Shown: piece after piece, positions 27,026 to 62,553 of the stretch
Numbering within the stretch: the first letter of the stretch is position 1
How the letters are laid out: each line of letters opens with the position of its first letter
Source of the DNA: Sulfurimonas sediminis
GTDB taxonomy: Bacteria; Campylobacterota; Campylobacteria; Campylobacterales; Sulfurimonadaceae
DNA: 64,000 nucleotides
NCBI RefSeq assembly: GCF_014905115.1
Contig: NZ_CP041235.1
Coordinates: 186,001 to 250,000 of the forward strand
Direction: 5' to 3'
Notes under the pieces: generated by a model
The model's database searches: none
Seen by the model: the letters and a program-made list of their open reading frames with translations, nothing else
Told to the model about the DNA's origin: nothing
Made by a program: the position numbers and the translations under genes

Positions 27026-28261
27026 TTGCAATACAGGAACAACTTTAATTCAACAATGTTAGACAAAGAACTTTTTAGTGCAATTGTAAAAGAAAAAGAA
27101 GAGAGAGGGTATTACAATCTTCCGTTTAAAGATACTACTGCCTTTAAAGAGTATGCTGCAACAGTAAAACAAAACAATGTTGTTGTGATAGGGATAGGCG
27201 GCAGTACATTAGGAACATATGCCATATACCAGTTTTTAAAACACTCTAAAGAATTGACAAAAGAGCTCTTTTTTTTAGAGACAACAGATCCTATAGATAT
27301 ACAATCCAAAATGAAAAATATTGACGTGGAAGATACCCTTTTTATAGTGATATCAAAATCCGGAACTACCCTTGAAACTGTCGCTTTATTTAAATATGTC
27401 AACTCTCTTGTAAAATGTGACAAGCATAATACAGTAGTGATAACAGAAAATGACTCCAAATTAAACACATATGCCCAGGCAAACGGTATGAAAATGTTTG
27501 AAATTCCAAAAAATGTCGGCGGCAGGTTCTCTGTTTTGAGTGCTGTGGGACTGCTCCCGCTTGCAATAGTGGGAATCGATATAGATACCCTGCTCAGAGG
27601 CGCGAAAAATGTCCATGATTCATTTTTTGAAGAGAGTGATTTGGAACAAAATGATGATTCGCTTTCAATAAAGAAAAGAGTGTTGAAAAAAGCAAGATTC
27701 TTTGCCGAGTACAAAAACAGTTTTAATATTAATGTGGTTTTTTCATATTCGTCACGTTTGGAAGGCTTCAATAAATGGTACATTCAACTCTGGGGAGAGA
27801 GTCTTGGCAAGCTGGATATAAATTCAACACACCAGGGTTTAACTCCGGTTGGCATCATAGGACCGGTAGACCAACACTCCTTTTTACAACTTATAATAGA
27901 AGGAAGAAGAGATAAAACAGTGACATTTATAAAAGTAAATGACTTCCACTGTGATCTGAGTGTTCCGGACATAACACTCAAAGGTTTGGAAGAGTTAGAC
28001 TATATAAACAACATAAAGTTTTCTTCTTTGATCAATGAACAGGCAGATGCCACGATAGAAGCTATATGCAGTTTAAATGATATTCCCTGTGATGTAATGA
28101 ACATAGATGATATTTCTGAGTATTCTATTGCCGGTTTGATGTATGAGTATGAACTGCTCACATCACTGACAGCAAAACTTTTACAGATAAACTGCTATAA
28201 CCAGCCCGGTGTTGAGAGCGGAAAAAAGATATTGAAAGAAAAATTACTCAAAGGCCAGTAA
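27026..28261 (+). CDS. pgi: Glucose-6-phosphate isomerase, copy 1
   Basis: Interconverts glucose 6-phosphate and fructose 6-phosphate. 411 aa, the short Campylobacterota form (usual bacterial Pgi is about 550). [15 protein letters not shown] and SKSGTTLETVALF are the two SIS sugar-phosphate loops; [19 protein letters not shown], the Glu region LWGESLGK and QPGVESGKK follow. The start is TTG 27026, supported by GGGGATGGGA upstream and by alignment with the ATG of the second copy. Confidence 0.93.
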   Translation: MQYRNNFNSTMLDKELFSAIVKEKEERGYYNLPFKDTTAFKEYAATVKQNNVVVIGIGGSTLGTYAIYQFLKHSKELTKELFFLETTDPIDIQSKMKNIDVEDTLFIVISKSGTTLETVALFKYVNSLVKCDKHNTVVITENDSKLNTYAQANGMKMFEIPKNVGGRFSVLSAVGLLPLAIVGIDIDTLLRGAKNVHDSFFEESDLEQNDDSLSIKKRVLKKARFFAEYKNSFNINVVFSYSSRLEGFNKWYIQLWGESLGKLDINSTHQGLTPVGIIGPVDQHSFLQLIIEGRRDKTVTFIKVNDFHCDLSVPDITLKGLEELDYINNIKFSSLINEQADATIEAICSLNDIPCDVMNIDDISEYSIAGLMYEYELLTSLTAKLLQINCYNQPGVESGKKILKEKLLKGQ

Positions 28262-32645: not shown

Positions 32646-33532
32646 CTTGCAATCATCCCTTCTTTTGCTCTTTTTATAAGATACTGCCCATAGCCATTCT
32701 TTTTTAATGGCTGTGCCAGTTCTATAAGCTGCTTGGCATTGATATAACCCATCTCGTGGGCTATCTCTTCTATACAGGCAACTTTCAAACCTTGTCTCTT
32801 TTCAATCGTCTGAATAAACATACCTGCTTCCAAGAGGGAGTCATGTGTGCCGGTATCAAGCCACGCATAGCCACGCCCCATCAGTTTTACCCGTAATCTC
32901 TTCTCATGTAAATACTCTTGGTTCAGTGTTGTTATCTCCAACTCACCGCGATCGGACGGTTTTACATTTTTTGCTTTTTGCACTACATCATTCGGGTAGA
33001 AATAAAGCCCAACCACAGCATAGTTACTTTTTGGATTTTTAGGTTTTTCTTCCAGGGATATCACTTCACCTTTGTCGTTAAACTCTGCTACACCATAACG
33101 TTCCGGATCATTTACATAGTATCCGTATACAGTTGCCTTGTTCTTCTCCTGTGCATTTTTCACGCTTTGGGCAAGCAGAGTTGTAAGTTGTGATCCATAA
33201 AAAATATTGTCTCCAAGAACAAGACAGACGGAACTGTTGCCTATAAACTCTTCTCCAAGTATGAATGCTTGTGCGAGTCCATCCGGAGAGGGTTGGACTT
33301 TATAACTAAAATGCATACCAATCTCTTTTCCGCTTCCTAAAAGCTTTTTAAAGTTTGGTAGATCATTCGGAGTCGAAATGATTAACACCTCTGTAATACC
33401 TGCTAACATCAGTACTGAAAGCGGATAATAGATCATTGGTTTATCATAAATCGGTACCAACTGTTTACTTACACCTTTTGTTATAGGGTAAAGTCTTGTG
33501 CCACTCCCCCCCGCTAATATTATGCCTTTCAT
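32642..33532 (-). CDS. rmlA: Glucose-1-phosphate thymidylyltransferase
   Basis: First step of the dTDP-rhamnose path. 296 aa with [22 protein letters not shown] (nucleotide loop), [42 protein letters not shown] and [15 protein letters not shown]. Overlaps rmlC and pgi copy 2 by 4 bp each. Confidence 0.95.
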
Positions 33533-34740
33533 ATGTCTCCTTTATTTAATTTGTTTTTTAAAATAACTTTTCCGGATTCAACCCCCGGTTGGTTGTAGGT
33601 ATTGACATGCATAAATTTTCCACATAACGAAGTTAGCAGTTCAAACTCATACATTAATGCTGCTATGGCACTTTCGTTAATTCCTTCTATAGTGATAACA
33701 TCACAGGGGATGTCATGAAGATTATTTATTGCTTCTATGGTGGCATCTGCCTGATTTTTGATAAGTGAAGAAAAATTCAGATTATCCAGGTAGTCCATCT
33801 CTTCAAGTCCGTCGAGTGTAACCGAGGGTATCTTTAAATCATTATCAAAGTTTTCTACTTTTATTACAGTTAATGTTTTATCTCGTTTCCCCTCAATGAC
33901 AAGTTGTAAAAACGAGTGCTGGTCTATTGGTCCTATAATCCCAACAGGTGTGAGTCCCTGTCTTACAGAATTACTGTCTACTTTCCCAAGGGATTCTCCC
34001 CAAAGTTGAATATACCATTTGTTAAAACCTTCAAGTCTTGAAGAGTAAGAGAAAACCACATTGATGTTAAAACTGTTTTTATACTCTACTAAAAATCTTG
34101 CTTTTTTGAGTAAACGTTCATAAGCCTCTTTTTTTTGAAAAAAATTGTCGTGACTTTTTTGTGCTCCTTGTAAAATTTTATCAATATCAATACCGACAAT
34201 GGCTAACGGCAGTAGTCCTACTGCACTAAAAACAGAAAATCGTCCACCCACATTTTTTGGTATCTTAAAACTTCGTATATTGTTTTTTTCGGCAAAAGTT
34301 TTCAGCTTGGATCCGTCTTCTGTAACCACAACAGTATTGGTGCTGTTACATGTAATCAAAGCGTTTATATACTTAAAAATTGCTATTGTCTCAACGGTTG
34401 TGCCTGATTTTGAAATAACAACAAAGAGAGTATCTGAAAGATCTATACTTGCTACTTTCGCTTTAATATCTATGGGGTCTGTTGTCTCTAAAAAGAGAAG
34501 ATTTTTGTCTAAATCTCGAGAATGCTTTAGAAATTTATATATCGCATAAGTTCCCAATGTACTCCCGCCAATTCCAATGACAACAATATTTTTCTGTGTG
34601 ACGGTTTTTGCATATGTTTTATAATCAGCAGTGCTGCAAAACGGAAGATTATAATATCCTATGCTTTTTTTTTCTTCCAGGATTTCATCAAAAATCACTT
34701 CATCTGAAATGCTTGGGTTGAAGTTGTTTTTGTATTTCAA
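33529..34740 (-). CDS. pgi: Glucose-6-phosphate isomerase, copy 2
   Basis: 403 aa paralogue of the gene at 27026 with the same SIS motifs ([57 protein letters not shown]). It is about 8 residues shorter around position 195-210. Overlapping coupling to rmlA suggests it serves to steer hexose phosphate into nucleotide-sugar synthesis. The two copies bracket the rml genes. Confidence 0.92.
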
Positions 34741-34749
34741 AACAGTTCC

Positions 34750-35520
34750 TTATTTTACTATGAACCATGGGTTTAGGAGATTGTCTTTGTTGTAGACCAT
34801 TGGTTCTTTTTTCTCAAACTGCCAGGTCGTTTTTCCGGCTTCTCTCACTATTGCATCCGCAGCCGCCGTATCCCATTCCATAGTGGGTGCCAGTCTTGGG
34901 TATATGTCTGCAACTCCCTCAGCCACCATGCAGAGTTTGAGAGAACTTCCTTTGGAAACCTGTGCTGTCTCTTTTGTATCAAGGGCATCTATGAATTCCT
35001 GTGTTTCTTTTGATAAATGCGATTTTGAGGCGACTACAGACATTTTTTCTTTCGGGGAACTGTTTACATGTAAAGGCAGTTTTTGATTGTTTTTAAACGC
35101 ACCTTCTCCCTGCTTTGCCTTATACATCTCCTCTATAGCCGGAGCATATACAACACCAAGAACAGGAGTGTTTTTATGAATAAGTGCTATATTTACCGTA
35201 AATTCACCATTTTTTTTGATAAACTCTTTGGTACCGTCTATGGGGTCTATACACCAGTAACACTCCCACTCTTTTCTTTCGCTGTAAGGCACTTCTTTGT
35301 TTTCTTCCGACATCAGAGGAATATCGGGGTAAAGTTTTGTCAAAGCATCACAAATTATTTTGTTTGCTTTTGTATCTGCCTCGGTAAGGGGTGACTTGTC
35401 GTCTTTATATTCTATGGTAAAATCTTTTTCATATATCTGCATAATTGCATCGCCTGCTTCTTTGGCAAGAGCTACAATCTTTTCTAAGTCTATTCTTTCT
35501 AACACAATAATCAACCTCAT
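34750..35520 (-). CDS. cysQ: 3'(2'),5'-bisphosphate nucleotidase
   Basis: Hydrolyses PAP, the inhibitory by-product of sulfotransferases, to AMP. 256 aa of the inositol-phosphatase fold: DDKSPLTEADTKAN, LMSEENKE, CIDPIDGTKEFIKKNGEFTVNIALI (metal site) and EWDTAAADAIVREAG. The start may be GTG 35505 (GAGG upstream) rather than ATG 35520. Placement next to cysC/cysN/cysD supports a PAPS/PAP function. Confidence 0.9.
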   Translation of the reverse strand: MRLIIVLERIDLEKIVALAKEAGDAIMQIYEKDFTIEYKDDKSPLTEADTKANKIICDALTKLYPDIPLMSEENKEVPYSERKEWECYWCIDPIDGTKEFIKKNGEFTVNIALIHKNTPVLGVVYAPAIEEMYKAKQGEGAFKNNQKLPLHVNSSPKEKMSVVASKSHLSKETQEFIDALDTKETAQVSKGSSLKLCMVAEGVADIYPRLAPTMEWDTAAADAIVREAGKTTWQFEKKEPMVYNKDNLLNPWFIVK

Positions 35521-35621: not shown

Positions 35622-36230
35622 TTATTCTCCTGAAAAATATCCGTTTTTTTCTAAGTAAGTCACAATTTTTTCTACACTTTCTTCTAAGGACATTTTATCT
35701 GTTTTTATGTTAATTTCTGCTTTATCCGGTGCTTCATACGGAGAGGATATTCCTGTGAAATTTGGTATTTCCCCTTTTCTTGCTTTTTCATACAGGCCTT
35801 TTGGGTCACGGCTTTGACATACTTCCAAGGGTGTGTCTATAAAAATTTCTATGAACTCATCTCTCTTTACTAATTTTCGGACCATCTCTCTTTCTCTTTG
35901 AAAAGGTGATATAAAAGCACTCAGCACTATAAGCCCGCTGTCTACAAAAAGCTTTGCCACCTCGCCAATGCGCCGTATGTTTTCCACCCGATCTTCATCA
36001 GAAAAACCAAGCCCGTAGTTTAGCCCCATGCGGATGTTGTCTCCATCTAAAAGATAAGTATGTTTTTGTAATTCCAGTAGTCTGCTCTCTACAGCATTTG
36101 CTATGGTAGATTTTCCACTGCCACTTAAACCGGTAAACCAAAGTATGCATGGTTTTTGTTTTTTTAACTTTGAGCGTTCTTGTTTTGAGACTTGGTGCTC
36201 GTGCCAGACTATATTTTCATTATTTGACAT
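35622..36230 (-). CDS. cysC: Adenylylsulfate kinase
   Basis: Phosphorylates APS to PAPS, the sulfotransferase donor. 202 aa of full normal length: Walker [37 protein letters not shown] (APS and Mg site), [10 protein letters not shown] and the lid region [28 protein letters not shown]. Overlaps the next gene (a second, membrane-anchored kinase) by 11 bp. Confidence 0.95.
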
Positions 36231-36945
36231 GATTCTTCTTTATATATTTTACTATTATTCTTACTGCTTCTTCAACGGAGGTATTATCTGTATCTATCAC
36301 AATCTCTGCATGCTGCGGCTCTTCATAAACATCATTGACACCTGAGAAGTTTTGATACTCACCACTAAGTGCTTTTGCGTAAGCACCCTTATAGTCTCTC
36401 TCTTTACAAGTTTCTACATCAGCCTTCACATAAACAACGATGTTGTTTTTCACCATTTCACGAATAGCTTTTCGGCTCTCTCTGTAAGGACTTACAAATG
36501 AAGCCACAGTAGAGACTGAGTTGTTTTGCAGTGTCTTTATAAGGTTGCCGATGCGATGCATATGACGATTTCTCTCTTCTCTTGTATAACCAATGTCTGG
36601 AATAAGCTCTCGTATATCTTTAGAGTCAATTCTTTCGAGTGGTATCTGCAGTTCCTGTAACTCTTCATAGACTCTGTCTGCTATAGTTGTTTTTCCACTC
36701 AGTGGCAAACCTGTAAACCAAAGATTAAAAGGGTCTATTCTCTTTTTGCCCCATTTTATTTTTTGCCATACTCTTTCATGGAACCAGTAAAGCGCAATTT
36801 TCAGTACCGTTTCTATCATTCCTGCAGCTATGGCAAGATCCAGCCTGTCAAAGAAAAAATAAACTATTGCAATGGTTGTAGTAGTCGCAACTACTCTCCA
36901 GCTAATCCCTTTGACAATGGAACGCTTATTTGTCTCTTTATACAT
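36220..36945 (-). CDS. DUF2061 membrane domain fused to divergent APS-kinase-like domain
   Basis: 241 aa. Residues 5-65 are a DUF2061 membrane module with two hydrophobic stretches ([20 protein letters not shown] and the segment around [15 protein letters not shown]). Residues 72-241 are APS-kinase-like: Walker [12 protein letters not shown] and the lid [28 protein letters not shown]. The usual DGDNIR is DSKDIR and the LNYGLGFS part is IPDIGYTRE, so the substrate site is altered. ATG 36945 overlaps the cysN stop (TAATG). It may be a membrane-tethered kinase with a changed substrate, or a non-catalytic partner. Confidence 0.82.
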
Positions 36946-38390
36946 TATACACCCCTGCACCCCCACTCAGGAAAGTTTTCCCGTATGTAACGATTGAGTG
37001 CTTTTTCTGCTGCTGTGTACTCTTTTATGGCATTCTCTGCTTTGTCACTCTCTCTTGCGGCTACATCCACTATCATACCTGCGCCTACTGTATTGTTTGT
37101 CATTCTGTCAACGACTATAAAACTTCCTGTGAGGCGGTTTGATGCATAGGGGTCTGCTGCTATCGGGCGGGTAAGAACCATTTTGCATGAGGCGATATCA
37201 TTGAGTCCCAGTTCTTTTAGCTGTTCGCGTTTGTAGGTATTGACATCTATTTTGTAGTTTATATGCTCAAAGCTTCCGTTTACTACAGAAGTGGCTCTTT
37301 TGATATCATAGTTTTTTCCGATCTGCATCGGTTTTTCATCCATCCAAACCAGCATGACTTTGAGTGCGTTTGAGACTCTTGGAAGAGAAGCAGTGTGCAC
37401 GAGCATATCACCACGACTGATGTCTACTTCATCTGTAGTTGTAATAGTCACCGCCATTGGAGCGTATGCCTCTTTACATGTAGCTTCACGGTCTGTTTCT
37501 GTGATATCTCCGGCATTGATGATGCTTTTTACTTTTGTGGTTTTTCCACTTGGAAGAACTGTTATATCATCACCAACAGCTACACTGCCTGCTGCAATAG
37601 TTCCGCAAAAACCTCGAAAGTTCAGATTTGGACGGTTGACATACTGTACCGGAAATCTGAAGTCTTCTTCTTTTATCTCTTTGCTGATGTCCATAGTGTC
37701 CAAGAGTTCCAGGAGTGGTTTTTCCTCGTACCAAGGAGTATGTTGGCTTTTGTTCACCACATTGTCACCATCAAGAGCACTCAGCGGAATGAAGTATCTG
37801 TTTTTTATGCCAAGTTCATCTGCGAGTGCATTATAGTCTGCTTTTATCTTCTCATAAACCTCTTGGCTAAAGTCAACAAGGTCCATTTTGTTAATGGCTA
37901 CTATAACATGCTCTATACCTAAGAGGTTTACTATGAAGCTGTGTCTTCTTGTCTGTGTGAGAATTCCTTTGCGGGCATCTATGAGTATGATGGCCACATC
38001 GGCTGTACTTGCACCTGTTACCATGTTCCTGGTGTACTGTTCATGACCCGGAGTATCGGCTATGATGAATTTTCTGCTTTCAGTTGCAAAAAACCTGTAT
38101 GCCACATCTATGGTAATGCCCTGTTCCCGTTCACTCTGCAAGCCGTCAACAAGCAGAGCCATATCTATCTTTTCGCCTGTTGTGCCGTATTTGTTACTTT
38201 CACTCTCTGCCGCTGCAAGTTGATCATCAAAGATCATCTTGGAGTCATAGAGCATACGTCCTATAAGTGTACTCTTACCATCGTCCACGCTTCCACATGT
38301 AAGGAAGCGAAGCATATCTTTGTTTTCATGTTCTTTGAGGTACTCTTCAATGGAGTCAATAGACGGGCTACTGTAAGTTGTCTCTTGCAA
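36945..38390 (-). CDS. cysN: Sulfate adenylyltransferase large (GTPase) subunit, copy 1
   Basis: EF-Tu-like GTPase that powers APS formation by CysD. 481 aa, no fused CysC domain. GSVDDGKSTLIGRML (G1), DTPGHEQYTRNM (G3) and NKMDLVDF (G4) are intact; domains 2-3 follow. The segment from about residue 17 onward is nearly identical to the copy at 56478; the first 16 residues differ. Confidence 0.96.
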   Translation of the reverse strand: MQETTYSSPSIDSIEEYLKEHENKDMLRFLTCGSVDDGKSTLIGRMLYDSKMIFDDQLAAAESESNKYGTTGEKIDMALLVDGLQSEREQGITIDVAYRFFATESRKFIIADTPGHEQYTRNMVTGASTADVAIILIDARKGILTQTRRHSFIVNLLGIEHVIVAINKMDLVDFSQEVYEKIKADYNALADELGIKNRYFIPLSALDGDNVVNKSQHTPWYEEKPLLELLDTMDISKEIKEEDFRFPVQYVNRPNLNFRGFCGTIAAGSVAVGDDITVLPSGKTTKVKSIINAGDITETDREATCKEAYAPMAVTITTTDEVDISRGDMLVHTASLPRVSNALKVMLVWMDEKPMQIGKNYDIKRATSVVNGSFEHINYKIDVNTYKREQLKELGLNDIASCKMVLTRPIAADPYASNRLTGSFIVVDRMTNNTVGAGMIVDVAARESDKAENAIKEYTAAEKALNRYIRENFPEWGCRGV

Positions 38391-38406: not shown

Positions 38407-38883
38407 TTATTTTACTAAAAGTCTGTTTTTTACAAAAGTGTGCACACTTTTGTATATATTTACAAGCCTGTCACTCTTCTCGTAAATAATATTGATAGTA
38501 TCAACAACTTCATCTTGATTAAAACTGTATTCATGTGCTATCTCATTTCTTATTTCTCTTAATGCCAGCCATTCATTTTTATCTATGACTTCTAATTCTT
38601 CGAGTCTGTTGAGTATGTCTATAAAAGTCATTTTTTTGACATCTTCTTTAGACATAATCATAATAGCTCTAAAAAGAGATTCTCCCATTGTGTCTTGCAG
38701 TTTGGAAAATCTAAAATTTAGCTGGTCTATAAAACTGCTTGTAATTTTATCTATTTGAAGATATTGTTCCAAACTGAAAGGCATGAAAGCACTTAAGTAC
38801 TCTTTTGCATCAAGGAGTTTTTCCACATGTTTGTCACACTCATAAAGTTTTTCCTTAAAAGTATGCTCCACATTTTGTTTCAT
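38407..38883 (-). CDS. HEPN-domain toxin of a HEPN/MNT pair, inserted between cysN and cysD
   Basis: 158 aa helical protein with the HEPN RNase motif R-x4-H in LREIRNEIAHEYSF (about 112-125). Such HepT-like proteins are RNases neutralised by a minimal nucleotidyltransferase, which is encoded immediately upstream with a 4-bp ATGA overlap. Absent at the equivalent place of the second cysND block. Confidence 0.82.
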   Translation of the reverse strand: MKQNVEHTFKEKLYECDKHVEKLLDAKEYLSAFMPFSLEQYLQIDKITSSFIDQLNFRFSKLQDTMGESLFRAIMIMSKEDVKKMTFIDILNRLEELEVIDKNEWLALREIRNEIAHEYSFNQDEVVDTINIIYEKSDRLVNIYKSVHTFVKNRLLVK

Positions 38884-39164
38884 AACTCTATTCCTTTTGT
38901 CAGTGCTTCCTGTTCTATAAGTCTGTTGCTGTCCCTTGCTATGATCAGATCAATTTTCTGGTCACCTATCTTTTGTTTTAGGCGAGATAAAAACTGTATC
39001 TTTTTTTCTAAGGGATTATTACTGTCTGATTGAACAAACAGGTCTATGTCTCCGCCTTTTTCAGCGTCATCTGTGCGACTGCCAAAAAGGTATATTTTTC
39101 CGTCTTGAAAAGTTTCCAAAAATATCTCTTTTATAAACACTCTTTCCTTTTCTGTCAAGCGCAT
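38880..39164 (-). CDS. Minimal nucleotidyltransferase (MNT) antitoxin
   Basis: 94 aa with YLFGSRTDDAEKGGDIDLFV, the GS-x9-D-x-D nucleotidyltransferase site, and a later Asp in KIDLIIAR. In characterised HEPN/MNT systems the MNT AMPylates the HEPN toxin; that chemistry is inferred here. The start lies 3 bp after the cysD stop, so it is probably on the cysD transcript. Confidence 0.83.
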   Translation of the reverse strand: MRLTEKERVFIKEIFLETFQDGKIYLFGSRTDDAEKGGDIDLFVQSDSNNPLEKKIQFLSRLKQKIGDQKIDLIIARDSNRLIEQEALTKGIEL

Positions 39165-39166
39165 TT

Positions 39167-40078
39167 TTAAAAATACCCCTCAATTTTTTTCTTCTCCATA
39201 GCACCTTCACTGTCTTTATCTATGAGGCGACCTTCACGCTCACTACTTGTTGAGAGGAGCATCTCTTTTATGATCTCAGGAAGTGTTGTCGCATTTGAGT
39301 TGATGGCACCTGTGAGTGGGTAACAACCAAGTGTTCTAAAACGAACCATCTCATTTTTGGCAGTTTTACGAAGCTCTTCGGGCATACGCTCATCATCCAC
39401 CATTATTTTTGTTCCCTCATACTCAACTACTGGTCTTTCTGCCGCAAAGTAGAGCGATGGAATAGGGATGCCCTCAAGGTAGATGTACTGCCATACATCA
39501 AGTTCTGTCCAGTTGCTTATAGGAAAGACACGGACACTTTCACCTTTTGCAAGAGCAGTGTTATAGACATTCCAAAGTTCAGGTCTTTGGTTTTTAGGGT
39601 CCCATCTGTGGTTTTTATCACGAAATGAAAATATACGCTCTTTTGCACGGGACTTCTCTTCATCACGGCGAGCACCACCGATGACAGCATCATAGCCACC
39701 GTCATTGAGTGCCTGTTTTAAAGCCTCTGTTTTCATAATGTCGGTATGTACTTTACTTCCGTGTGTAAATGGACCTACATTCATCTCTACACCTTCAGGG
39801 TTAGAGTGAACAACAAGGTCAAATCCCAGCTCTTTCATTCTGTTATCACGAAATGCTATCATCTCTTTAAATTTCCATGTTGTATCTACATGTAAGAACT
39901 TAAAAGGAGGTTTGGCGGGAGCAAAGGCTTTTAGTGCAAGATGCAGCATCACAGAGGAGTCTTTTCCTACTGAGTACATCATCACAGGGTTGGTAAACTC
40001 CGCCGCTACTTCACGGAGAATGTGGATGGACTCTGCTTCAAGTTGTTTGAGGTGGGTTAGGCGTTCTTTGGTTATCAT
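39167..40078 (-). CDS. cysD: Sulfate adenylyltransferase small subunit, copy 1
   Basis: Forms APS from ATP and sulfate with CysN. 303 aa PP-loop protein: [51 protein letters not shown] and [10 protein letters not shown]. Protein sequence identical to copy 2 at 57943. Lies between two different HEPN/MNT pairs. Confidence 0.97.
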
Positions 40079-40081
40079 AAA

Positions 40082-40516
40082 TTAGTTTTCCTTCTTTGTT
40101 ATGTAGTTTAAAGTATTTTTTATAATTTGAATGAGATGCTCAGTATATTGCAAAACTTCTTCAAACACTTCAGTGAGTTTTTCTTCTATATACTCATGAG
40201 CTATTGTGTTTCTAATATCCTTCATTATTCTCAATTCTTGTATATCTTCAAACAAGCCTCTTTTGTGAGCATTGTTTACAACATCTACTAAGGTTCCTTG
40301 GTTTTCAAACTCATAGGCATCTATTGTCCTAAACATTTTTCTTATTAAAAAATCTATGCTTCTGCTGTATCTTGCACACAATGTTTCAAATTTACCAAAT
40401 TCTTCAATAGTATAGTCTTTTTTTAGCCCTATTTGAGAACACTCTTTAAAAGAGATCTCCAGCCAAAAAAGTTGTTTTTCCAATAATTGTTTATCAACAA
40501 TAAGTTTATCATACAT
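40082..40516 (-). CDS. HEPN-domain toxin, second pair (copy 1)
   Basis: 144 aa helical protein with RNTIAHEY (R-x4-H-x-Y) near residue 105. The ATG at 40516 overlaps the MNT stop (TGATG). Ends 3 bp before cysD, so toxin and sulfurylase are in one operon. Identical at protein level to 58858-59292. Confidence 0.82.
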   Translation of the reverse strand: MYDKLIVDKQLLEKQLFWLEISFKECSQIGLKKDYTIEEFGKFETLCARYSRSIDFLIRKMFRTIDAYEFENQGTLVDVVNNAHKRGLFEDIQELRIMKDIRNTIAHEYIEEKLTEVFEEVLQYTEHLIQIIKNTLNYITKKEN

Positions 40517-40800
40517 CACAATAAAACAGCCTTTTTAAAGATATACCTGGTAAATGGATTTTTAAATTCTCCGTTATCAAGTACAATATCAATCTTTTGC
40601 TCTCCAAAGTAGTTAAAAAAATCTATACGAATAAATCGTAAATCTTTTTTTGTTAATGACTTAGATACTATAAGCAAATCTATGTCACCACCTTTTTTTG
40701 TATCATCAACACGACTTCCAAATAGATACAGTTGTGCATCTTTTGAGAGTTCATTCACTTTGTTTTTCAGTACTTGAATTTGCTCTGTTTGTATCCGCAT
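40516..40800 (-). CDS. Minimal nucleotidyltransferase antitoxin, second pair (copy 1)
   Basis: 94 aa with YLFGSRVDDTKKGGDIDLLI. The start chosen is ATG 40800 (GAGGAAG upstream), matching the copy at 59576, rather than the upstream in-frame start at 40827. First gene of the cysD operon, downstream of the repeated promoter cassette. Confidence 0.82.
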   Translation of the reverse strand: MRIQTEQIQVLKNKVNELSKDAQLYLFGSRVDDTKKGGDIDLLIVSKSLTKKDLRFIRIDFFNYFGEQKIDIVLDNGEFKNPFTRYIFKKAVLL

Positions 40801-40850
40801 TTTTTCTTCCTCTGCCCAATTAACCAATCCCTCAGCTTTTAATACTTTAT

Positions 40851-40920
40851 TATACTGTAAAGAGAAAATAAGTCCAAATCATATCCGTCTCGTTTATTTA
40901 TTATTTATATTTGGCTTTTT
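40851..40920 (-). pseudogene. 3' remnant of an NAD-epimerase gene
   Basis: Closely matches the DNA encoding the C-terminal part of the epimerase at 50060 (KAKYKIIN.RDGYDLDL), here with a 1-bp loss and no rest of the gene. It marks an old recombination junction just inside the promoter cassette. Confidence 0.6.
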
Positions 40921-40923
40921 GTT

Positions 40924-40982
40924 GTGAAATCTTGCGAATTATAACAGCTCTTGTATTATGTTAAACTAAAACAAATATCATT
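40924..40982 (-). promoter_or_regulatory. Repeated promoter cassette, copy a
   Basis: A 59-bp sequence found four times in the window. On the minus strand it carries an extended -10 TGTTATAAT (TATAAT at 40943-40938) and TTAACA (40964-40959) about 15 bp upstream. Drives the MNT-HEPN-cysD-cysN operon. Confidence 0.65.
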
Positions 40983-40995
40983 CGTCATAAAGCTC

Positions 40996-41117: not shown

Positions 41118-41672
41118 CTAAAACAAACTAGTGCATAACTTCAAAAGTTTAGCTTTATCAGTTTCATTAATATTTTGAAGTAAATTAGTTACAAATTCCA
41201 CGAACTTTTTAGCTGTACTAAAATAGATATTTTTTACTTTTGATTTTAGAAAACTCCAAACTCTCTCTATTGGATTATATTCTGGTGAATATGGAGGTAA
41301 GAAGATCAATGTGATGTTGTTTTTCTCGCAATACTCTCTAACTTTTTTGGTTTTATGCCAAGAAGCATTATCAATCAAATAAGCTATATGCTTATCTCCA
41401 TAATACTCTCTCGCAATTTTAAAGTGTTCTATCGTTGTAAGAGCATTGCCTGTGTCGTGAAATGATGATATTAGATGTCCATCACTTAGGTTAAAACTAC
41501 CAAAGCAATTAAGACTTGTCCCATAGCGATAGCCTGAATAACTTACAGCTTCGCCTTTTGTTGACCATGAAGTTATATGATTACTTTCAGATGCAAATCT
41601 ACTTTCATCTTGGGAAAGTAACACTGTAGTTGCACTCAAAGATAATAGAGTTTTTTTACCTCTTCTTTCCAT
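41118..41672 (-). CDS. IS630-family transposase, catalytic part (element B)
   Basis: 184 aa with the DDE triad: SQDESRFAS, LIDNASWHKTK and YSPEYNPIERVWSFLK. It overlaps the upstream frame by 37 bp. An A7 run at the overlap (in GGTAAAAAAACTC) is placed for a -1 frameshift that would join N-terminal helix-turn-helix and catalytic parts, as in other IS630 members. Confidence 0.85.
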   Translation of the reverse strand: MERRGKKTLLSLSATTVLLSQDESRFASESNHITSWSTKGEAVSYSGYRYGTSLNCFGSFNLSDGHLISSFHDTGNALTTIEHFKIAREYYGDKHIAYLIDNASWHKTKKVREYCEKNNITLIFLPPYSPEYNPIERVWSFLKSKVKNIYFSTAKKFVEFVTNLLQNINETDKAKLLKLCTSLF

Positions 41673-42067
41673 ATGGATATTTTTTCTTCTGACTTTTTTG
41701 GATCGATTTTAGTTGCTACCTTATGAGTCAAATTCAATCTTTTTAAAATAGGATAAATACTACCTCTTGGGTATTTAACATTAAAGTGATATTCAATTAA
41801 ATCAGCAATTATATGACCATCCCAACCTTTTGCATACACTGGATAGGTAGTTGTAAGTATCTTTTTTAGCTCTCGCATCTGTTCTTCATTTAAAAAGCTT
41901 TTATGGTCGCCTCCACGATTATCGCTTAGGGCTTCTATCCCCTCATTAAAATAAGCACTTATCCATGTTCCAACATAACCAGCACATCTATGCATTAGTT
42001 TTGCAATTTTACCTTTTGGTATGCCATCTAAGAACATTGATAAGTACCTATCCAAAAATAAAACCAA

Positions 42068-42778
42068 TTAATCAACCATAACCAAAGGGTAAAATTTCTT
42101 CTCATACAGTGTAAAATCTATGACTCTCTTATCTCCATATTCATTAAGCATTCGCTCAACATATTCTTTCATTGCAGTATAGCTTTGATAAGCAGACATT
42201 TCCATCCAGTGATATTTGATAAATTTCCAAAGAATTTCAATAATATTGAGTTCTGGAGAGTAAGGAGGTAGATAGATTAAAGTAAGACCTCTATTTGCCC
42301 ATTTTGGGATATTCTCTCTGAATTTTTTACTTTTGTGAAAGGATGCATTATCCAATGTTACCACAGTAGGCTTCGTAAGTTGAAGAGAGAAGTCATCAAA
42401 GACTTCAATAACAGTATCACTTGTTACAGAGGACTCCTTGATGTATGCTTTTAGATCTTCTTGTTTGGAGATAAAACCAAGAACATTAAACCTTTTTGCG
42501 TGGAAAGATTTAATCACCATTGTTGCATTTACAGGTGACCAGGAATAAGGGATATTTGAGTTAACAGAAAAACCACTTTCATCAAAGTAATAATGATTGA
42601 TTTTGCCTTGTTGTGCGAGTAAATCATACTTTTGCAAGTGCCTCTTTTTCTCTTCATAAAGCGTATTATCTGGTTTCTTTGCAGGAACAAATCGTAATCG
42701 CTTATAGCTGAACCCCATCTCTTTAAGGTATCTTCTGAGCGTTGATTTAGAAAAAACCTTAGTAATCTTTTTTCCCAA
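42068..42778 (-). CDS. IS630-family transposase, catalytic part (element A)
   Basis: 236 aa with YYFDESGFSVNS, VTLDNASFHKSKK and PPYSPELNIIEILWKFIK as the DDE site. The frame is open upstream to about 42815 (KLSISAAITKLGKKITKVF), joining the N-terminal ORF in the +1 frame at an A6 run. One A fewer would fuse both halves, so this is either a frameshift mutation or a slippage site. Confidence 0.83.
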   Translation of the reverse strand: MGKKITKVFSKSTLRRYLKEMGFSYKRLRFVPAKKPDNTLYEEKKRHLQKYDLLAQQGKINHYYFDESGFSVNSNIPYSWSPVNATMVIKSFHAKRFNVLGFISKQEDLKAYIKESSVTSDTVIEVFDDFSLQLTKPTVVTLDNASFHKSKKFRENIPKWANRGLTLIYLPPYSPELNIIEILWKFIKYHWMEMSAYQSYTAMKEYVERMLNEYGDKRVIDFTLYEKKFYPLVMVD

Positions 42779-42806
42779 TTTTGTGATTGCAGCACTTATA
42801 CTGAGT

Positions 42807-43109
42807 TTATTTTTTAAAAACTTCTTTTATCTTATCTTCATCTTCAACTTTTAGTATTTTCGGTCGCCCTTGTTGTGGTATATCCTTAAGGCTGGCTACT
42901 CCTCCTCTCTTATACCGAATTAACCAATTATAAACTGCATCCGTACATGAACTCAACTTTTTTGATATTTCTAAAACACTTATCTTTTGTGAATTTAGAA
43001 GTACTCCCATCGCTCTTTTCTTCTCTCTGGCTTTATTGGATTCCTCTATGAATTTATAAAGCTCTAACTCTTCTTTTTCGTCTAATTTTATATAGCTACT
43101 ATGTCTCAT
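42807..43109 (-). CDS. IS630-family transposase N-terminal part (element A)
   Basis: 100 aa: a helix-turn-helix region (KISVLEISKKLSSCTDAVYNWLIRYKRGGVASLKD) and the linker PQQGRPKILKVEDEDKIKEVFKK, typical of IS630 orfA. Confidence 0.82.
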   Translation of the reverse strand: MRHSSYIKLDEKEELELYKFIEESNKAREKKRAMGVLLNSQKISVLEISKKLSSCTDAVYNWLIRYKRGGVASLKDIPQQGRPKILKVEDEDKIKEVFKK

Positions 43110-45373: not shown

Positions 45374-45398
45374 AAAATAACTTGTAAAGGTGTTTGTG

Positions 45399-46595
45399 AT
45401 GTATCAACAATTCTGTGGAATAGATGTAAGTAAAGACAGCTTTGACATTACTTTGCTTGAAAGCAGTGGTGAAGTTAAACTGCAAGAGAAGCTTTCAATG
45501 GATATAGAAGGATTTAATGCTTTGTTAAAGCACTTATCCAGCTACTCCAAAGAAGAGCTTCTTGTGTCAATGGAAGCGACAGGGATATATCATTTACCCC
45601 TATTGTCTTTTTTATTAGAACATAGTTTTAAAAGTGTAGTGATAAATCCCATACTCATAAAGAGTTTTATTGGTTCAACTACCTTGAGAAAGACTAAAAA
45701 CGATAAAAAAGATGCAACTTCTATTGCACTGTTTAGTTTAAAATCGTATCAATCTTTACATCTTGCTACGACTGATGCTATTGAGAACATCAGACCACTC
45801 ATTAGAGAGCGAGAATCGCTCTCTAAAGAAGTAGCAAGGTTAAAGACTGAAATAAAAGCTAACTTGACTCAATTATTTCCTGAATTGTTAAAGAACACAA
45901 ACATATTTACAAAAAGCATTTTAAATCTGCTTCTACAAGCTCCTAGCCGTAAGGCTATTAGGAACTTGAAGAAACAGAAAATTCAAAAACTACTCGATAG
46001 TACCAGTGGCAATAAAGTTAGAATCTCTGCTGGGGAGATATTATTTCTTGCCAAGAACTCTATTGCTGTATCTGATAAGTATCTTGAAAAGGTTTTAACT
46101 TCTAAAATTAGAAGATTAATAACTGTTCAAGACGAACTATCTTTTCTTGATGAAGAGCTGCAAAACTCTTTAGAAGATACTGATATTAATGATGATATTG
46201 AAATATTACAATCAATACCGGGCATCGGTACAGTAACTTCTAAAAACTTTATGGTTGAAGTATCCTCTGTTGATAAGTTCAAATCCGTCAAGCAACTTTG
46301 TGCTTTTATTGGAATTGATCCATCTGTGAGACAGAGTGGTACTTCAGTCAACTATAGAGGCAAAATCTCAAAAAGAGGTAATGCCAACCTTCGTCGAACT
46401 ATTTGGCAAATGGCAACAGGTGTTATACGAAGCTGTGAAAAATTTAAAGCCTACTACGACAAAAAACGCAGTGAAGGTAAAAAATTCAAACAAGCTGTAA
46501 TAGCTGTAGCCAATAAGCTTTTAAAAACAATATTTGTACTTTTAAAGAATAAAACTAAATTTGATGAAAATTTAGTTTGTGGTGTTTCTAAATGA
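45399..46595 (+). CDS. IS110-family transposase
   Basis: 398 aa, ATG 45399 with AAAGG upstream. N-terminal DEDD RuvC-like domain (FCGIDVSKDSFDI, SMEATGIYHLPL, KNDKKDATSIALF) and a C-terminal domain with ILQSIPGIGTVTS and the catalytic-Ser region SVRQSGTSVNYRGKISKRGNANLRR. Complete. Confidence 0.94.
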   Translation: MYQQFCGIDVSKDSFDITLLESSGEVKLQEKLSMDIEGFNALLKHLSSYSKEELLVSMEATGIYHLPLLSFLLEHSFKSVVINPILIKSFIGSTTLRKTKNDKKDATSIALFSLKSYQSLHLATTDAIENIRPLIRERESLSKEVARLKTEIKANLTQLFPELLKNTNIFTKSILNLLLQAPSRKAIRNLKKQKIQKLLDSTSGNKVRISAGEILFLAKNSIAVSDKYLEKVLTSKIRRLITVQDELSFLDEELQNSLEDTDINDDIEILQSIPGIGTVTSKNFMVEVSSVDKFKSVKQLCAFIGIDPSVRQSGTSVNYRGKISKRGNANLRRTIWQMATGVIRSCEKFKAYYDKKRSEGKKFKQAVIAVANKLLKTIFVLLKNKTKFDENLVCGVSK

Positions 46596-46615: not shown

Positions 46616-47646
46616 TTAGTTAGGTTTCTTTATAGTTGACTCCTTAAAATAATCACTCTCTACATTCATACCAAAAAAAACACGAGAGAGCATAAGATTT
46701 AATTTTATAAATTGTTTATCATTTTTTAATTTTTCACTCCAAACTTTAAACAGGACTCTTTTACCAAACAGAGTAAACCCTAGTTTAATATCATCAAAAT
46801 CTCCATATTTTAGCAGATATTCAATAAATAATTTTTCTGTAGCCTTACAATAAGTGATGTCTTTGCTGTAGCTCCAAAAAATCCCCTTATCTCTTAGTTT
46901 ATTAAAGAGTTGTACTTTTTGTTTATATCTCTTATATATTTTTGATATAAAAACATTGGAAAGCTTAAGATAAGAAGCTATACTTGTTTGTGTATACCCA
47001 TCATTTATAGCATCTGCAATCATAAACTCTCTATCTGCAGAATCAGTAAAATACTCTTCTAACTTCTTTGGTTTTTTCATACTAATCACATCTTCTTTTA
47101 TGTCATACTTAGCATGAAATATTTTGTTAATGTTTTCCAACTCTTTGTGACTCATATCTGTAGTAAAATCTACAATTTTTAATAACTCATCGTTAGCACA
47201 GGACAGGGCACTCGTGTTGGTTGACATAGCCCATCTGTATTTTTTTATCTCATCTACAATATTTGCTTTTGTAGGATTCAATTCTATATACTTTACCAAT
47301 GACTTTAGATAAACTTCATCATAAACAAACCAAGATTTAAACCTACCTTGAAACAAAGGGCCAACCCTTTTGTACTTGTTGTTAAAATAGATACTATACC
47401 TTGAATTTATTTGTCTCATAAGTAAAGAGAGATTTTCGTGCATAGTTTTTACTAAAAGGTGATAATGGTTACTCATCAAACAAAAAGAATAAACAGAAAA
47501 ATCATATGTAAAAGCGCTCTCATCAACGATCTCTAAAAATTTCAAATAGTCATCGTCATCTAAAAAGATAACTCTTCTTTCTACACCACGATTGAGAACA
47601 TGATAAAAACCTGCTTTTTCTATTCTTGGTTTGGTTTGCGTGCCAT
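46616..47646 (-). pseudogene. REP-associated (Y1) transposase, broken at both ends
   Basis: A paralogue of the intact gene at 48870. The start is ATG 47646 (MARKP...), but a tandem TGGTT duplication at 47627-47636 (plus strand) shifts the frame after codon 5. The rest reads through from about 47632 (RIEKAGFYHVLNRGVERR), with the HUH motif NHYHLLV. The 3' end was replaced by IS110, giving FKESTIKKPN instead of FKEVKNERF. Confidence 0.8.
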
Positions 47647-47722
47647 TGATTCTTTTCCTTTTATACTGCTAAAGATGATTATAGCATCTTTTAGTTAAAA
47701 GTAAATACTTGACCCCCTATTA

Positions 47723-47870
47723 CGAAAGATTTAAATAAAGAGCAATCTCTTTTGCAATACCAACCTCTCTTGAGTAATTTTTCAAGTTCTTTTTCATCAA
47801 ACTCTCTAGCAAAATCGATTTTCTCAATCAATGCAAAATTCAGCATTGAAAGTAAAGTTTTGACCCTGCT
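47723..47870 (-). pseudogene. Internally deleted Y1 transposase fragment
   Basis: Three short pieces matching 49234-49481 of the intact transposase gene, joined at two deletions. Each deletion lies between short direct repeats (CTTTT and TAATTTTT) in the intact copy. Ends in the AAAGTAAAG-TTTTGACCC motif. Confidence 0.72.
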
Positions 47871-47878
47871 GTTCTGCT

Positions 47879-48151
47879 TTAAAAAGTCGGCTTCACCTTT
47901 TCTGTGACATATTGATGTATTAACGATGAGAGTATGGTCTGATAGGGTATGTTTAATTCAGCACTTTTTCTTTTGAGCGCCAACATATCAAATTCAGGTA
48001 TTCTGATGTTGACATTTTTGGTTTTATTAAGAAAATTTTTAGCTGCCATTCTGGATTCTAGTAGTTCCTCTTCAAAATTTTCTATTCTTTCTAATTCGGA
48101 AGCTTTTTCCACCTCTTCGAGTAATTCCAATTCATAGTCATCCATTTTCAT
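47879..48151 (-). CDS. brnA: CopG/BrnA-type antitoxin
   Basis: 90 aa with an acidic, helical N-terminal half and a C-terminal ribbon-helix-helix (NVNIRIPEFDMLALKRKSAELNIPYQTILSSLIHQYV). Overlaps the toxin gene by 14 bp; toxin-first order is characteristic of BrnTA. Confidence 0.75.
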   Translation of the reverse strand: MKMDDYELELLEEVEKASELERIENFEEELLESRMAAKNFLNKTKNVNIRIPEFDMLALKRKSAELNIPYQTILSSLIHQYVTEKVKPTF

Positions 48152-48422
48152 TACACGCTCCTTTATATAACTTGTTCATTTTTCGGCTTGGGACAATTGT
48201 CTTAAAAAAAATCTCATCATTTTCTTTGACATACGGTACCATGTGTACATAGTTTTGTAAACACACTATATACATTTTCTGATGAGGATATTTATCGGTA
48301 TTGGGATGTTTAACAATATCCAAGACTTTGTCTTCATGAATTTGTGTCACCACATCTTCAAAACAGACACCTCTTTCTGCTTTTAAAAGTTTATTCTTTT
48401 CTATGTTCCATTTAAAGTTCAT
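48138..48422 (-). CDS. brnT: BrnT-like RNase toxin
   Basis: 94 aa. FKWNIEKNKLLKAERGVCFEDVVTQIHED is the BrnT N-terminal signature (F-x-W-D/N-x-x-K-N). The C-terminal half (MYIVCLQNYVHMVPYVKENDEIFFKTIVPSRKMNKLY) is divergent from the RISAR-type ending, so the exact subfamily is uncertain. Confidence 0.72.
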   Translation of the reverse strand: MNFKWNIEKNKLLKAERGVCFEDVVTQIHEDKVLDIVKHPNTDKYPHQKMYIVCLQNYVHMVPYVKENDEIFFKTIVPSRKMNKLYKGACNENG

Positions 48423-48510
48423 ACAAAAGTATATTACAATTCATATCATTTGTCAATTACAAATTAAAAAATCATAATCTCAAATCAAGGTGCCAGGTGA
48501 CAATAACAAC

Positions 48511-48711
48511 TCATTTCCCACTTCTCTTTATTATCCCACACACCGCCTGTTGCGATATCCCCAACACCTTGGCGATCATATGCTGAGAGTACCCTTCTTT
48601 ATATGTTTTTACGATTTGGCTGTTTCTCTCTTTTTTATCTCGTATCTCTGAAAATATTTCGGTAAGCCTATCAATATCAGGTTTTTTGTCTGTATTGGAA
48701 GCTTCTACCAA
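48511..48711 (-). pseudogene. C-terminal helix-turn-helix remnant, probably of a Y1 transposase
   Basis: 66 codons: KKERNSQIVKTYKEGYSQHMIAKVLGISQQAVCGIIKRSGK, a helix-turn-helix of the type ending REP-associated transposases (compare DGYTQTSIASYLKLSNVFISKIYKR in the neighbour). No catalytic domain precedes it. Could alternatively be a tiny free regulator. Confidence 0.5.
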
Positions 48712-48760
48712 AGAAGAGGCTGTTTTGCTCCGTTTTTTGCAGTCACCCGACCCCTAAGTT

Positions 48761-48907
48761 TTCACTCTTTCTATGACATAAGTGAAGTGTAAGAGCAGAA
48801 CCTCCGACTAAAACATACTTGTCTAAAAATGGACACTCTTCAATCATCTTTACTAAAAGTTTTTGTGTATTAGGAAGCAAGCAATTTAAGTTTTTCAAAT
48901 CTTTCAT
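48761..48907 (-). pseudogene. 5' fragment of an AbiEii-like gene
   Basis: MKDLKNLNCLLPNTQKLLVK...HLCHRKSE matches the first ~49 residues of the gene at 44533, then breaks inside the D-x-D site. Its ATG lies within the 3' end of the Y1 transposase at 48870, preserving the pre-IS110 arrangement. Confidence 0.82.
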
Positions 48908-57942: not shown

Positions 57943-58854
57943 TTAAAAATACCCCTCAATTTTTTTCTTCTCCATAGCACCTTCACTGTCTTTATCTATG
58001 AGGCGACCTTCACGCTCACTACTTGTTGAGAGGAGCATCTCTTTTATGATCTCAGGAAGTGTTGTCGCATTTGAGTTGATGGCACCTGTGAGTGGGTAAC
58101 AACCAAGTGTTCTAAAACGAACCATCTCATTTTTGGCAGTTTTACGAAGCTCTTCGGGCATACGCTCATCATCCACCATTATTTTTGTTCCCTCATACTC
58201 AACTACTGGTCTTTCTGCCGCAAAGTAGAGCGATGGAATAGGGATGCCCTCAAGGTAGATGTACTGCCATACATCAAGTTCTGTCCAGTTGCTTATAGGA
58301 AAGACACGGACACTTTCACCTTTTGCAAGAGCAGTGTTATAGACATTCCAAAGTTCAGGTCTTTGGTTTTTAGGGTCCCATCTGTGGTTTTTATCACGAA
58401 ATGAAAATATACGCTCTTTTGCACGGGACTTCTCTTCATCACGGCGAGCACCACCGATGACAGCATCATAGCCACCGTCATTGAGTGCCTGTTTTAAAGC
58501 CTCTGTTTTCATAATGTCGGTATGTACTTTACTTCCGTGTGTAAATGGACCTACATTCATCTCTACACCTTCAGGGTTAGAGTGAACAACAAGGTCAAAT
58601 CCCAGCTCTTTCATTCTGTTATCACGAAATGCTATCATCTCTTTAAATTTCCATGTTGTATCTACATGTAAGAACTTAAAAGGAGGTTTGGCGGGAGCAA
58701 AGGCTTTTAGTGCAAGATGCAGCATCACAGAGGAGTCTTTTCCTACTGAGTACATCATCACAGGGTTGGTAAACTCCGCCGCTACTTCACGGAGAATGTG
58801 GATGGACTCTGCTTCAAGTTGTTTGAGGTGGGTTAGGCGTTCTTTGGTTATCAT
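57943..58854 (-). CDS. cysD: Sulfate adenylyltransferase small subunit, copy 2
   Basis: 303 aa with the same protein sequence as copy 1, including [12 protein letters not shown] and [13 protein letters not shown]. One base pair separates its stop from the cysN start; the HEPN/MNT pair found here in copy 1 is absent. Confidence 0.96.
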
Positions 58855-58857
58855 AAA

Positions 58858-59576: not shown

Positions 59577-59633
59577 TTTTTATTCCTCTGCCCAATTAAC
59601 CAATCCCTCAGCTTTTAATATTTTATTATACTG

Positions 59634-59697: not shown

Positions 59698-59700
59698 GTT

Positions 59701-59759: not shown

Positions 59760-59798
59760 CGTCATAAAGCTCTTGCCATTACTTTTGTCCCTCCTACT

Positions 59799-61127: not shown

Positions 61128-61889
61128 TTAAAAGAGTAGGTTCTCTTTTCCAAATTTTTCTGTATACAGCAACAGATCGTCTTTATACATTTTGCTTACC
61201 AAATCAACCAGTTCTTCATCGTACAGGCTTTCATAAGAAGGGGCATACCCCTCATCTTTTAAGTTCAGCAGTTCCAAAGGCAGAGCAGTGGAGAAGTTTT
61301 TGTCATTTACGGTTTCATACTGGTCCAGACCGTGTTTTGTCAGATTGCGGGCGTCATAAATTTTAATATTTGCTTTCTCTTCAATGACCGGAACAGCTTT
61401 TGCAAAATCTTCCAGACAGAAATAGTCATCATATGTCTGGTACATCAAAAAATCTATCTGCGGGCGCCAGTGAATGTTGCTTCTAAATACACCCGGTCTG
61501 GAGATCAGCTCTACAAATTTTTTAAAGCTCATCTCTTTAAGCTCAATTTTTCTCTCAAGTTTGTCATACAGACTCCACGCTTCGGTAGTTCTGTCTACAA
61601 TTTTATCCATATATACACTTGCAACTCTTCTAAAAGGGTCTCTTAAAATAACAAAAGTGTATTTTGCTTTTATAAGCTCTCCCAAATCTGCTACAAATGT
61701 GTTGTTGTTCTTATGAATCCAGTTATAATCTTTTATCTCCTGTATACATCCGTTGACTATGGCCAGCGAAAGCCGCATGGTAGAACAGGCATTTTTTGGT
61801 ATAAAGGTATATACCGAGTCACTTTCATAAATCATCAGAGCGTGATTGCCGGTAAACTTAAAGAGATAATTTTGATAAAAGTTTATCAT
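61128..61889 (-). CDS. Sulfotransferase (Sulfotransfer_2-like)
   Basis: 253 aa from ATG 61889. VYTFIPKNACSTMRLSLA (5'-phosphosulfate site) and YTFVILRDPFRRVASVYMDK (3'-phosphate site) are the hallmarks of the carbohydrate sulfotransferase 2 family. The start codon lies inside the end of the upstream epimerase gene. Confidence 0.85.
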   Translation of the reverse strand: MINFYQNYLFKFTGNHALMIYESDSVYTFIPKNACSTMRLSLAIVNGCIQEIKDYNWIHKNNNTFVADLGELIKAKYTFVILRDPFRRVASVYMDKIVDRTTEAWSLYDKLERKIELKEMSFKKFVELISRPGVFRSNIHWRPQIDFLMYQTYDDYFCLEDFAKAVPVIEEKANIKIYDARNLTKHGLDQYETVNDKNFSTALPLELLNLKDEGYAPSYESLYDEELVDLVSKMYKDDLLLYTEKFGKENLLF

Positions 61890-62553
61890 ACAGATATGAT
61901 TTACCAAATTTTATGCCATCAATATTATACTGAGAAATTGTATTGTAAAGATCAATTAAATCCAACGTATAAGCATCTTTTTTATTAATCAGTGTAGAGT
62001 TTGCTTTTTTGTTTGTCAGTTGTTCAATAATCTCAACAATTTCAGCAATAGAGTATCTGTAACTATTGGCAATATCAAGAGTAGTACCTCCTTTATGATG
62101 TTCTATAAGCTGTATTACTATTGTATGCACGTCATCTAGAGCTATCACATATCGAAAAGCATCTTTGTATATTTTTATCTCCTTTTCTTCTTTGATGGCA
62201 TAAAAAAGATAATTAATGAGTGTAGAGTGCCTTTTAATATCTGCAAAAAGTTGTGGAATTCTAAATATGTAGTAAGAGGCAGAATGTTCCTTTATAATTT
62301 TTTCCATATTTTGTTTGTGGATATAATAGTCATTTAATTGATACTCTTTGGCGGACAAAGCACAACTGCTAAAGTAGACAAACTTTTTCTTTTTGTTGTT
62401 TATAAGTGTTTTTATTAAGAGATCTTTTTCTTTTTCAAATTCACTTTTATCAGTACAGTTTGAGTTTGCTACGCCACTTGCAAAAATGATGACATCATCC
62501 CTTTTATCCAACTCTTTAAAAGCCTGTGCCAATTGACCATTACCTATTATCAT
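61858..62553 (-). CDS. Small NAD-dependent epimerase/dehydratase-like protein, copy 2
   Basis: 231 aa paralogue of 50060-50755: IGNGQLAQAFKELD, VYFSSCALSAKEYQLNDYYIHKQNMEKII, FRIPQLFA. Overlaps a sulfotransferase gene on each side (4 bp upstream, 32 bp downstream). Confidence 0.8.
   Translation of the reverse strand: MIIGNGQLAQAFKELDKRDDVIIFASGVANSNCTDKSEFEKEKDLLIKTLINNKKKKFVYFSSCALSAKEYQLNDYYIHKQNMEKIIKEHSASYYIFRIPQLFADIKRHSTLINYLFYAIKEEKEIKIYKDAFRYVIALDDVHTIVIQLIEHHKGGTTLDIANSYRYSIAEIVEIIEQLTNKKANSTLINKKDAYTLDLIDLYNTISQYNIDGIKFGKSYLYDKLLSKLSL

Follow-up and report, generated by a model that had tools for sequence, protein, structure and literature searches.

The window analyzed here, a 64,000-nt stretch of the Sulfurimonas sediminis genome, encodes a protein in which a DUF2061 module is fused to an APS-kinase-like domain whose proposed catalytic base is replaced by lysine. 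We estimate a probability of about 50% that this protein is a membrane-anchored pseudo-APS-kinase, which on sequence grounds would be a regular, noncatalytic partner of CysD, CysN, and CysC (with CysQ) in the provision of PAPS to sulfotransferases for surface polysaccharide sulfation.

The fusion gene lies between cysN and a canonical cysC (Table 1). It starts with an ATG at 36945 within the stop of cysN, the junction reading TAATG, and its other end shares 11 nt (36220–36230) with the cysC frame, the overlap that the initial annotation had described. An alternative GTG start at 36966 would extend the overlap with cysN; the ATG is likelier because the upstream extension runs into a stop in many relatives. 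The protein matches Pfam DUF2061 (PF09834; E 3e-18, 66.3 bits against a cutoff of 23.1) and Pfam APS_kinase (PF01583; E 4e-41, above the cutoff), and it passes NCBI's adenylyl-sulfate-kinase equivalog-domain cutoff (TIGR00455; 158.5 against 138.7 bits). In the structure model, the DUF2061 part forms helices at residues 6–31 and 35–62; the hydropathy of the fusion peaks at a moderate ∼1.6. Sequence and model support its assignment as a predicted membrane module.

Table 1. Coordinates of the fusion, its motifs, and related genes in the window
Feature	Coordinates	Strand	Basis
DUF2061-APS-kinase-like fusion, 241 aa	36220..36945	(-)	ORF and Pfam
DUF2061 module, aa 10–61	36763..36918	(-)	PF09834 match; two long helices in the model
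APS-kinase-like domain, aa 72–218	36292..36732	(-)	PF01583; Foldseek and VIA-align to solved APS kinases
P-loop GLPLSGKT, aa 79–86, kept	36688..36711	(-)	alignment
DSKDIR, aa 107–112, replacing DGDNIR; Lys109 at the base-Asp position	36610..36627	(-)	alignment; roles from PMC4373884 (available part)
Lid RDYKGAY, aa 183–189; Lys186 the counterpart of M. tuberculosis Lys562	36379..36399	(-)	alignment; PMC4373884 (available part)
Canonical CysC, 202 aa, LDGDNIR	35622..36230	(-)	profile matches
cysN	36945..38390	(-)	profile match
cysD	39167..40078	(-)	profile match
cysQ (PAP phosphatase)	34750..35520	(-)	profile match
Sulfotransfer_2 protein, likely a PAPS user	61128..61907	(-)	PF03567, E 1.5e-15

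Residue roles were taken from the available part of a report on M. tuberculosis CysC (PMC4373884), in which Asp478 holds the Mg-bound water, Asp480 is the proposed base (3.6 Å from the 3′-OH of APS), the lid residue Lys562 stabilizes the transition state, Arg483 and Arg497 hold the phosphosulfate, and Phe492 and Phe576 stack on the adenine. We compared these positions in 86 distinct core-fusion domains (extracted by script), 130 CysC or CysNC proteins, and 12 short-type APS kinases. At the Asp480 position, not one of the 86 core fusions carries Asp or Glu (Lys in 80, Ser in 3, and Thr, Asn, and Arg in 1 each); Asp is present in 130/130 CysC/CysNC and 12/12 short-type kinases, and three archaeal APS kinases in the alignment also keep DGD (DGDW, DGDG, and DGDV). 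The lid Lys562 position is replaced in 5/86 core fusions vs. 0/130 CysC/CysNC. All 86 have the P-loop Lys, Arg483, and Arg497, and 85/86 retain Asp478, the exception being the damaged L105. The protein in the window follows the same pattern: it has the P-loop Lys and Ser/Thr, the first Asp, and the two APS-binding Arg, and it lacks the second Asp of LDGD. The exchange of DGDNIR for DSKDIR in a DUF2061-APS-kinase fusion that retains P-loop and lid, as the initial annotation put it, is therefore borne out and extends across the family. Judged from the alignment, the family has lost or relaxed both residues assigned to catalysis, the base Asp and the lid Lys, but holds on to those for binding, which favors a pseudokinase.

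The LNxxLGF stretch had also been described as lacking. This holds for the spelling, which is LIPDIGY in the window's fusion, but not as a loss: the stacking aromatic at this site is Phe or Tyr in 84/84 core fusions, and the corresponding sequence in the 12 short-type APS kinases, all of which have an intact Asp, is FPxTGF. By alignment, the missing LNxxLGF is a subfamily trait.

The same residues leave some room for a membrane-tethered APS kinase that is still active, with Asp110 or no group at all replacing the base and PAPS made at the membrane. All substrate-binding residues are kept, the equivalog-domain cutoff is passed, and Asp110, present in 74/80 fusions, could stand in as the base; both the cutoff and Asp110 count against a pseudokinase, and relatives with intact Asp and two genomes in which no other APS kinase was found (described below) add to the case for activity. 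We nevertheless consider activity unlikely, given the absence of Asp or Glu from the base position throughout the core fusions, the occasional loss of the lid Lys, three Bacteroidota fusions (L104, L109, and L110) that have no carboxylate at residue 110 either, and the frequent presence of CysC in the same locus.

Structure prediction, which the initial annotation had proposed as a check, gave a model with a pLDDT of 92.6 from 95 rows (70.6 from 27 near-identical rows) and a fold that matches solved APS kinases. Foldseek paired it with the solved APS kinase 7yq1 (target TM 0.92), and VIA-align returned Z 19.5–27.2 for APS kinases vs. at most 18.0 for the other kinases listed. Relative to CysC (TIGR00455, PF01583), the fusion has the fold, P-loop, first LDGD Asp, both phosphosulfate-binding Arg, lid, and adenine-stacking aromatics in common, but it carries Lys for the base Asp, has DUF2061 fused to it, and usually has a complete CysC alongside.

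The APS-kinase-like C-terminal domain of Penicillium ATP sulfurylase (PDB ID codes 1i2d and 1m8p) is allosteric, binds PAPS, and is noncatalytic, and by analogy it may offer the precedent for a membrane pseudo-APS-kinase. The first VIA-align row of the fusion model is 1m8p residues 394–571 (Z 27.2, tied with others), and in both cases, an APS-kinase fold would work with ATP sulfurylase. However, the fungal domain is joined to ATP sulfurylase, whereas the fusion is a separate gene joined to DUF2061. The alignment also places the losses differently: in the fungal domain, the P-loop reads SGKD, without its Ser/Thr, and the first Asp is gone (LLGD) but the second is kept, the reverse of the fusion.

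A different role was suggested by the initial annotation, namely a kinase for another sulfonucleotide or sugar. In this alternative, the altered loop would take another nucleotide or sugar as acceptor, comparable with the cytidine diphosphoramidate kinase of Campylobacter capsule synthesis, which is APS-kinase-like. The acceptor-side loop is altered yet strongly conserved, 20 positions are flagged as core-specific (some of them common to the intact-Asp fusions L202 or L220), and rml-like and glycan-like neighbors were recognized by eye. The idea is nonetheless weakened, and we regard it as quite improbable: the residues that bind APS and ATP, including both phosphosulfate-binding Arg and the adenine-stacking aromatics, are kept while the catalytic ones are lost or relaxed; the conserved operon mates are sulfate-activation genes; and Lys109 itself gives way to Ser, Thr, Asn, or Arg in 6/86. 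The annotation's other idea, a scaffold, fits better, with the channeling of PAPS to membrane sulfotransferases as a hypothetical role, and its picture of an altered active site placed beside PAPS synthesis for sulfotransferases is supported by the residue counts and by a conserved operon.

Within the same family, the fusion occurs in 29/151 genomes, in 27 of them intact, in L020 nearly full length with an in-frame stop, and in L030 cut by the end of the contig. A second APS-kinase match accompanies it in 28 of the 29, and in the 29th, contig JAFGUB010000055.1 (L055) ends inside cysC. Among the 42 same-family genomes with an APS-kinase match, 13 have no fusion, so PAPS synthesis apparently does not depend on it. 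In genome contigs, 155 stretches matched the search pattern and 97 of them encode relatives; the best 80 of these 97 were kept. They come mostly from Campylobacterota, with some from Gammaproteobacteria (Cycloclasticus, Methylophaga, and Methylococcaceae) and a few from Bacteroidota metagenome-assembled genomes. The order cysD-cysN-fusion-cysC-cysQ is found in 51 of these 80 loci, which favors a pseudokinase partner, and CysC lies inside the fetched stretch in 71. At least one of cysD, cysN, cysC, and cysQ is present in 74; in the other 6, none appears within the fetched stretch, which counts against a partner role, as do two copies that look broken. These are L060 (the same record as L020), whose DUF2061 part is interrupted by an in-frame stop, and L105, with a deletion and odd changes; both are probably broken, so that the fusion gene can be lost. 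Chance or plain decay of the fusion as a whole is ruled out by the 80 loci and by 27 aligned orthologs. Mean column identity is 84% for the fusion (27 rows) vs. 74% for the CysC neighbors (23 rows), and this higher conservation, following a long stem of 1.03 changes per column, points to selection on the fusion.

Elsewhere, the fusion is sparse. A Gammaproteobacteria sample contained 1 clear case among 274 genomes, the center of the sample itself; Bacteroidota samples contained 2/247 (by frame length), 3/294, and 4/395; and the order to which G1017 belongs contained 1/16, again the center. One fusion (Gemmatirosa) was present among the 15 plasmid records listed of 504, and none of the 8 stretches that matched the pattern on viral contigs was a fusion relative. 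Two gammaproteobacterial genomes, G156 and G157, encode a DSKD fusion with CysN and a CysH-like protein (PF01507 in G156, by eye in G157), and in these possibly incomplete genomes, the profile search found no APS-kinase match besides the Asp-less fusion. This counts against a pseudokinase; PAPS may be dispensable there, contigs may be missing, or the fusion may be active. Several loci have further neighbors. In Methylophaga thiooxydans (L088:3565-8723), genes for a lactamase-rhodanese protein, a Pyr_redox_2 protein (SQR-like), and a SulP sulfate permease with STAS stand directly before the fusion, a set not seen by eye in the Methylophaga locus L091. By eye as well, the fusion adjoins cysC in an apparent pse cluster in an Arcobacter metagenome-assembled genome (L082) and is near rml-like and sulfotransferase-like genes in Thiovulum (L062).

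The operon in the window runs cysD, an MNT/HEPN-like pair, cysN, fusion, cysC, cysQ, a pgi-like gene, and rml-like genes (the latter named by eye). PMC11641403 describes the co-occurrence of PAPS genes and sulfotransferases within a polysaccharide cluster as a hallmark of the synthesis of sulfated polysaccharides. Besides the Sulfotransfer_2 protein of Table 1, further ORFs in the window looked like sulfotransferases by eye and had no sulfotransferase match in Pfam. Across the 151 same-family genomes, PF13469 occurs in 15/29 genomes with the fusion, 6/13 with other APS-kinase matches only, and 3/109 with neither. A tie of sulfotransferases to the fusion in particular is therefore rejected; PF13469 tracks PAPS synthesis instead. 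It also undercounts sulfotransferases, being absent from the S. sediminis genome, which has the PF03567 protein.

Other parts of the window are repeated or mobile. A second cysDN copy matches the first at 36955–38336 vs. 56509–57890 (1382 bp, 99.1% DNA identity) and at 39167–40995 vs. 57943–59772 (1830 bp, 99.5%). Because the whole genome contains a single fusion and just one further APS-kinase match, neither follows the second copy. MNT/HEPN-like pairs lie on both sides of cysD (38407–39164 and 40082–40827); cysD and cysN overlap in the second copy, and the intervening pair thus reflects either an insertion into one copy or a loss from its counterpart. Two similar glucose-6-phosphate-isomerase-like ORFs are present at 33529–34740 (Pfam PGI) and 27026–28261, and transposase-like ORFs (by eye) lie within the sulfation island at 41118–43109, 45390–46595, and 46616–49916.

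Relatives outside the core retain other states of the active site. Two fusions have an intact Asp: L202 (G1017, sampled from the class of G850 and assigned to Bacteroidota through the chain L109-G158-G850) and L220 (Gemmatirosa kalamazoonensis plasmid 2), which share an 18-residue stretch and the motif LDGDS. At E 1e-8, G1017 has no APS-kinase match other than L202; for Gemmatirosa, of which the plasmid alone was covered, the order is cysQ-fusion-cysD with a sulfotransferase-like ORF downstream (neighbors by eye). L200 (the same gene as L223) and L201 read DGH, with His at the base position, lack Arg497, and coexist with CysC or CysNC. L236 (1112–1840), the most degenerate fusion seen, reads DSRG, with Arg at the base position, has GKRE as its P-loop, lacks Arg497, and precedes cysD and a CysNC. 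That Asp is intact in some relatives and missing in others that coexist with CysC or CysNC also favors a pseudokinase.

We built a tree of 69 rows (21 of the 86 core fusions, 5 odd fusions, 12 short-type kinases, and 31 of the 130 CysC). Fusions and short-type kinases fall on one side of a branch (100/96), the core fusions form their own branch (100/100) on the long stem noted above, and the intact-Asp fusions group with the short-type kinases (94/84). The short-type kinases, from Bacteroidota (L224–L235), share with the fusions a His three columns after Arg497 but are without DUF2061 and have the Asp intact in all 12. The best tree needs two Asp-loss changes; a topology that unites the Asp-less fusions in a single clade survives the AU test (p-AU 0.418), and we have dropped the claim of two independent losses. 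A single clade of all fusions is not rejected either (p-AU 0.172). We infer that an ancestral DUF2061-APS kinase, active at the membrane, came first and that, in the company of a separate CysC, the fused domain ceased to be catalytic while retaining its nucleotide pocket.

DUF2061, whether in the fusion or outside it, occurs in 59/298 Campylobacterota and 28/247 Bacteroidota genomes. The Campylobacterota matches include 21 in frames of 241–255 aa, the size of the fusion, and most others are in frames of ∼75–110 aa; six genomes combine a fusion-sized and a short-frame match (the second in G623 being partial). We inspected 3.1-kb stretches around 38 standalone genes (the 12 best-scoring from Campylobacterota and 26 from Bacteroidota) and found cysD within ∼1.5 kb in 28/38, a count without a chance control. 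The usual Campylobacterota order is Rrf2-like, cysK-like, DUF2061, cysH-like, cysD (by eye except cysD); the 10 exceptions are L178 and L179 (cysH-like gene, no cysD seen), L183, L190, L191, and L193–L197. In two Bacteroidota loci (L186:1471-1887, with two Pfam stretches, and L185:1480-1917), a tandem double DUF2061 sits beside cysC and cysD. Like DUF2061 proteins at large (PF09834), the fusion scores above the cutoff, has two helices, and has sulfate-activation neighbors; unlike it, they are usually standalone, mostly in the short frames, and often with a cysH-like gene. DUF2061 is thus linked by context to sulfate activation in Campylobacterota and Bacteroidota, not everywhere. The available parts of the literature naming DUF2061 (iron-response tables, a polymyxin screen, and a mutation table) contain no link to sulfate, and those on Caulobacter and Shewanella have DUF2061 genes responding to iron.

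The proximity to cysD favors the pseudokinase partner, as does the model with its APS-kinase fold. The proximity would also suit a protein in which DUF2061 is the working part, serving ATP sulfurylase as an anchor or as an element for sulfate entry, and the kinase domain a mere handle for folding or contact. The tandem DUF2061 genes beside cysC and the invariance of helix polar residues in 27/27 aligned fusions agree with such a division of labor. It is improbable all the same: an invariant kinase pocket is needless for a mere handle, DUF2061 offers two helices only, and the iron responses of Caulobacter and Shewanella point elsewhere.

If the fusion is a membrane-anchored pseudo-APS-kinase, it would now bind ATP and APS or PAPS and dock sulfate activation at the inner membrane. 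Its partner there could be CysC, given that APS kinases form dimers, or CysDN. The fusion could also localize or sense PAPS at the membrane. Lys109 replaces the Asp near the 3′-OH of APS, where PAPS bears its 3′-phosphate, making a product-binding site plausible. A wider and more tentative idea, which we think rather doubtful as a whole, is that DUF2061 is a general membrane-docking subunit for CysDN. It would act on its own in the reductive branch; in the sulfation branch, it would be joined to an APS kinase that has retired. The Lys109 pocket would then hold PAPS rather than APS and sense it or hand it over at the inner membrane, making the fusion an independently built bacterial counterpart of the fungal PAPS-sensing domain.

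Our literature search returned nothing pairing adenylylsulfate kinase with pseudokinase. The NCBIfam cutoff is passed although the proposed base is missing, and automatic annotation will therefore tend to call this protein adenylyl-sulfate kinase. The existence of both intact-Asp and Asp-less relatives makes the pseudokinase reading directly testable. If true, it would give DUF2061 a functional context, it would show how an enzyme tethered to the membrane can become a scaffold when a soluble copy is available, and it would point to the inner membrane as the place where sulfate activation for surface sulfation is organized.
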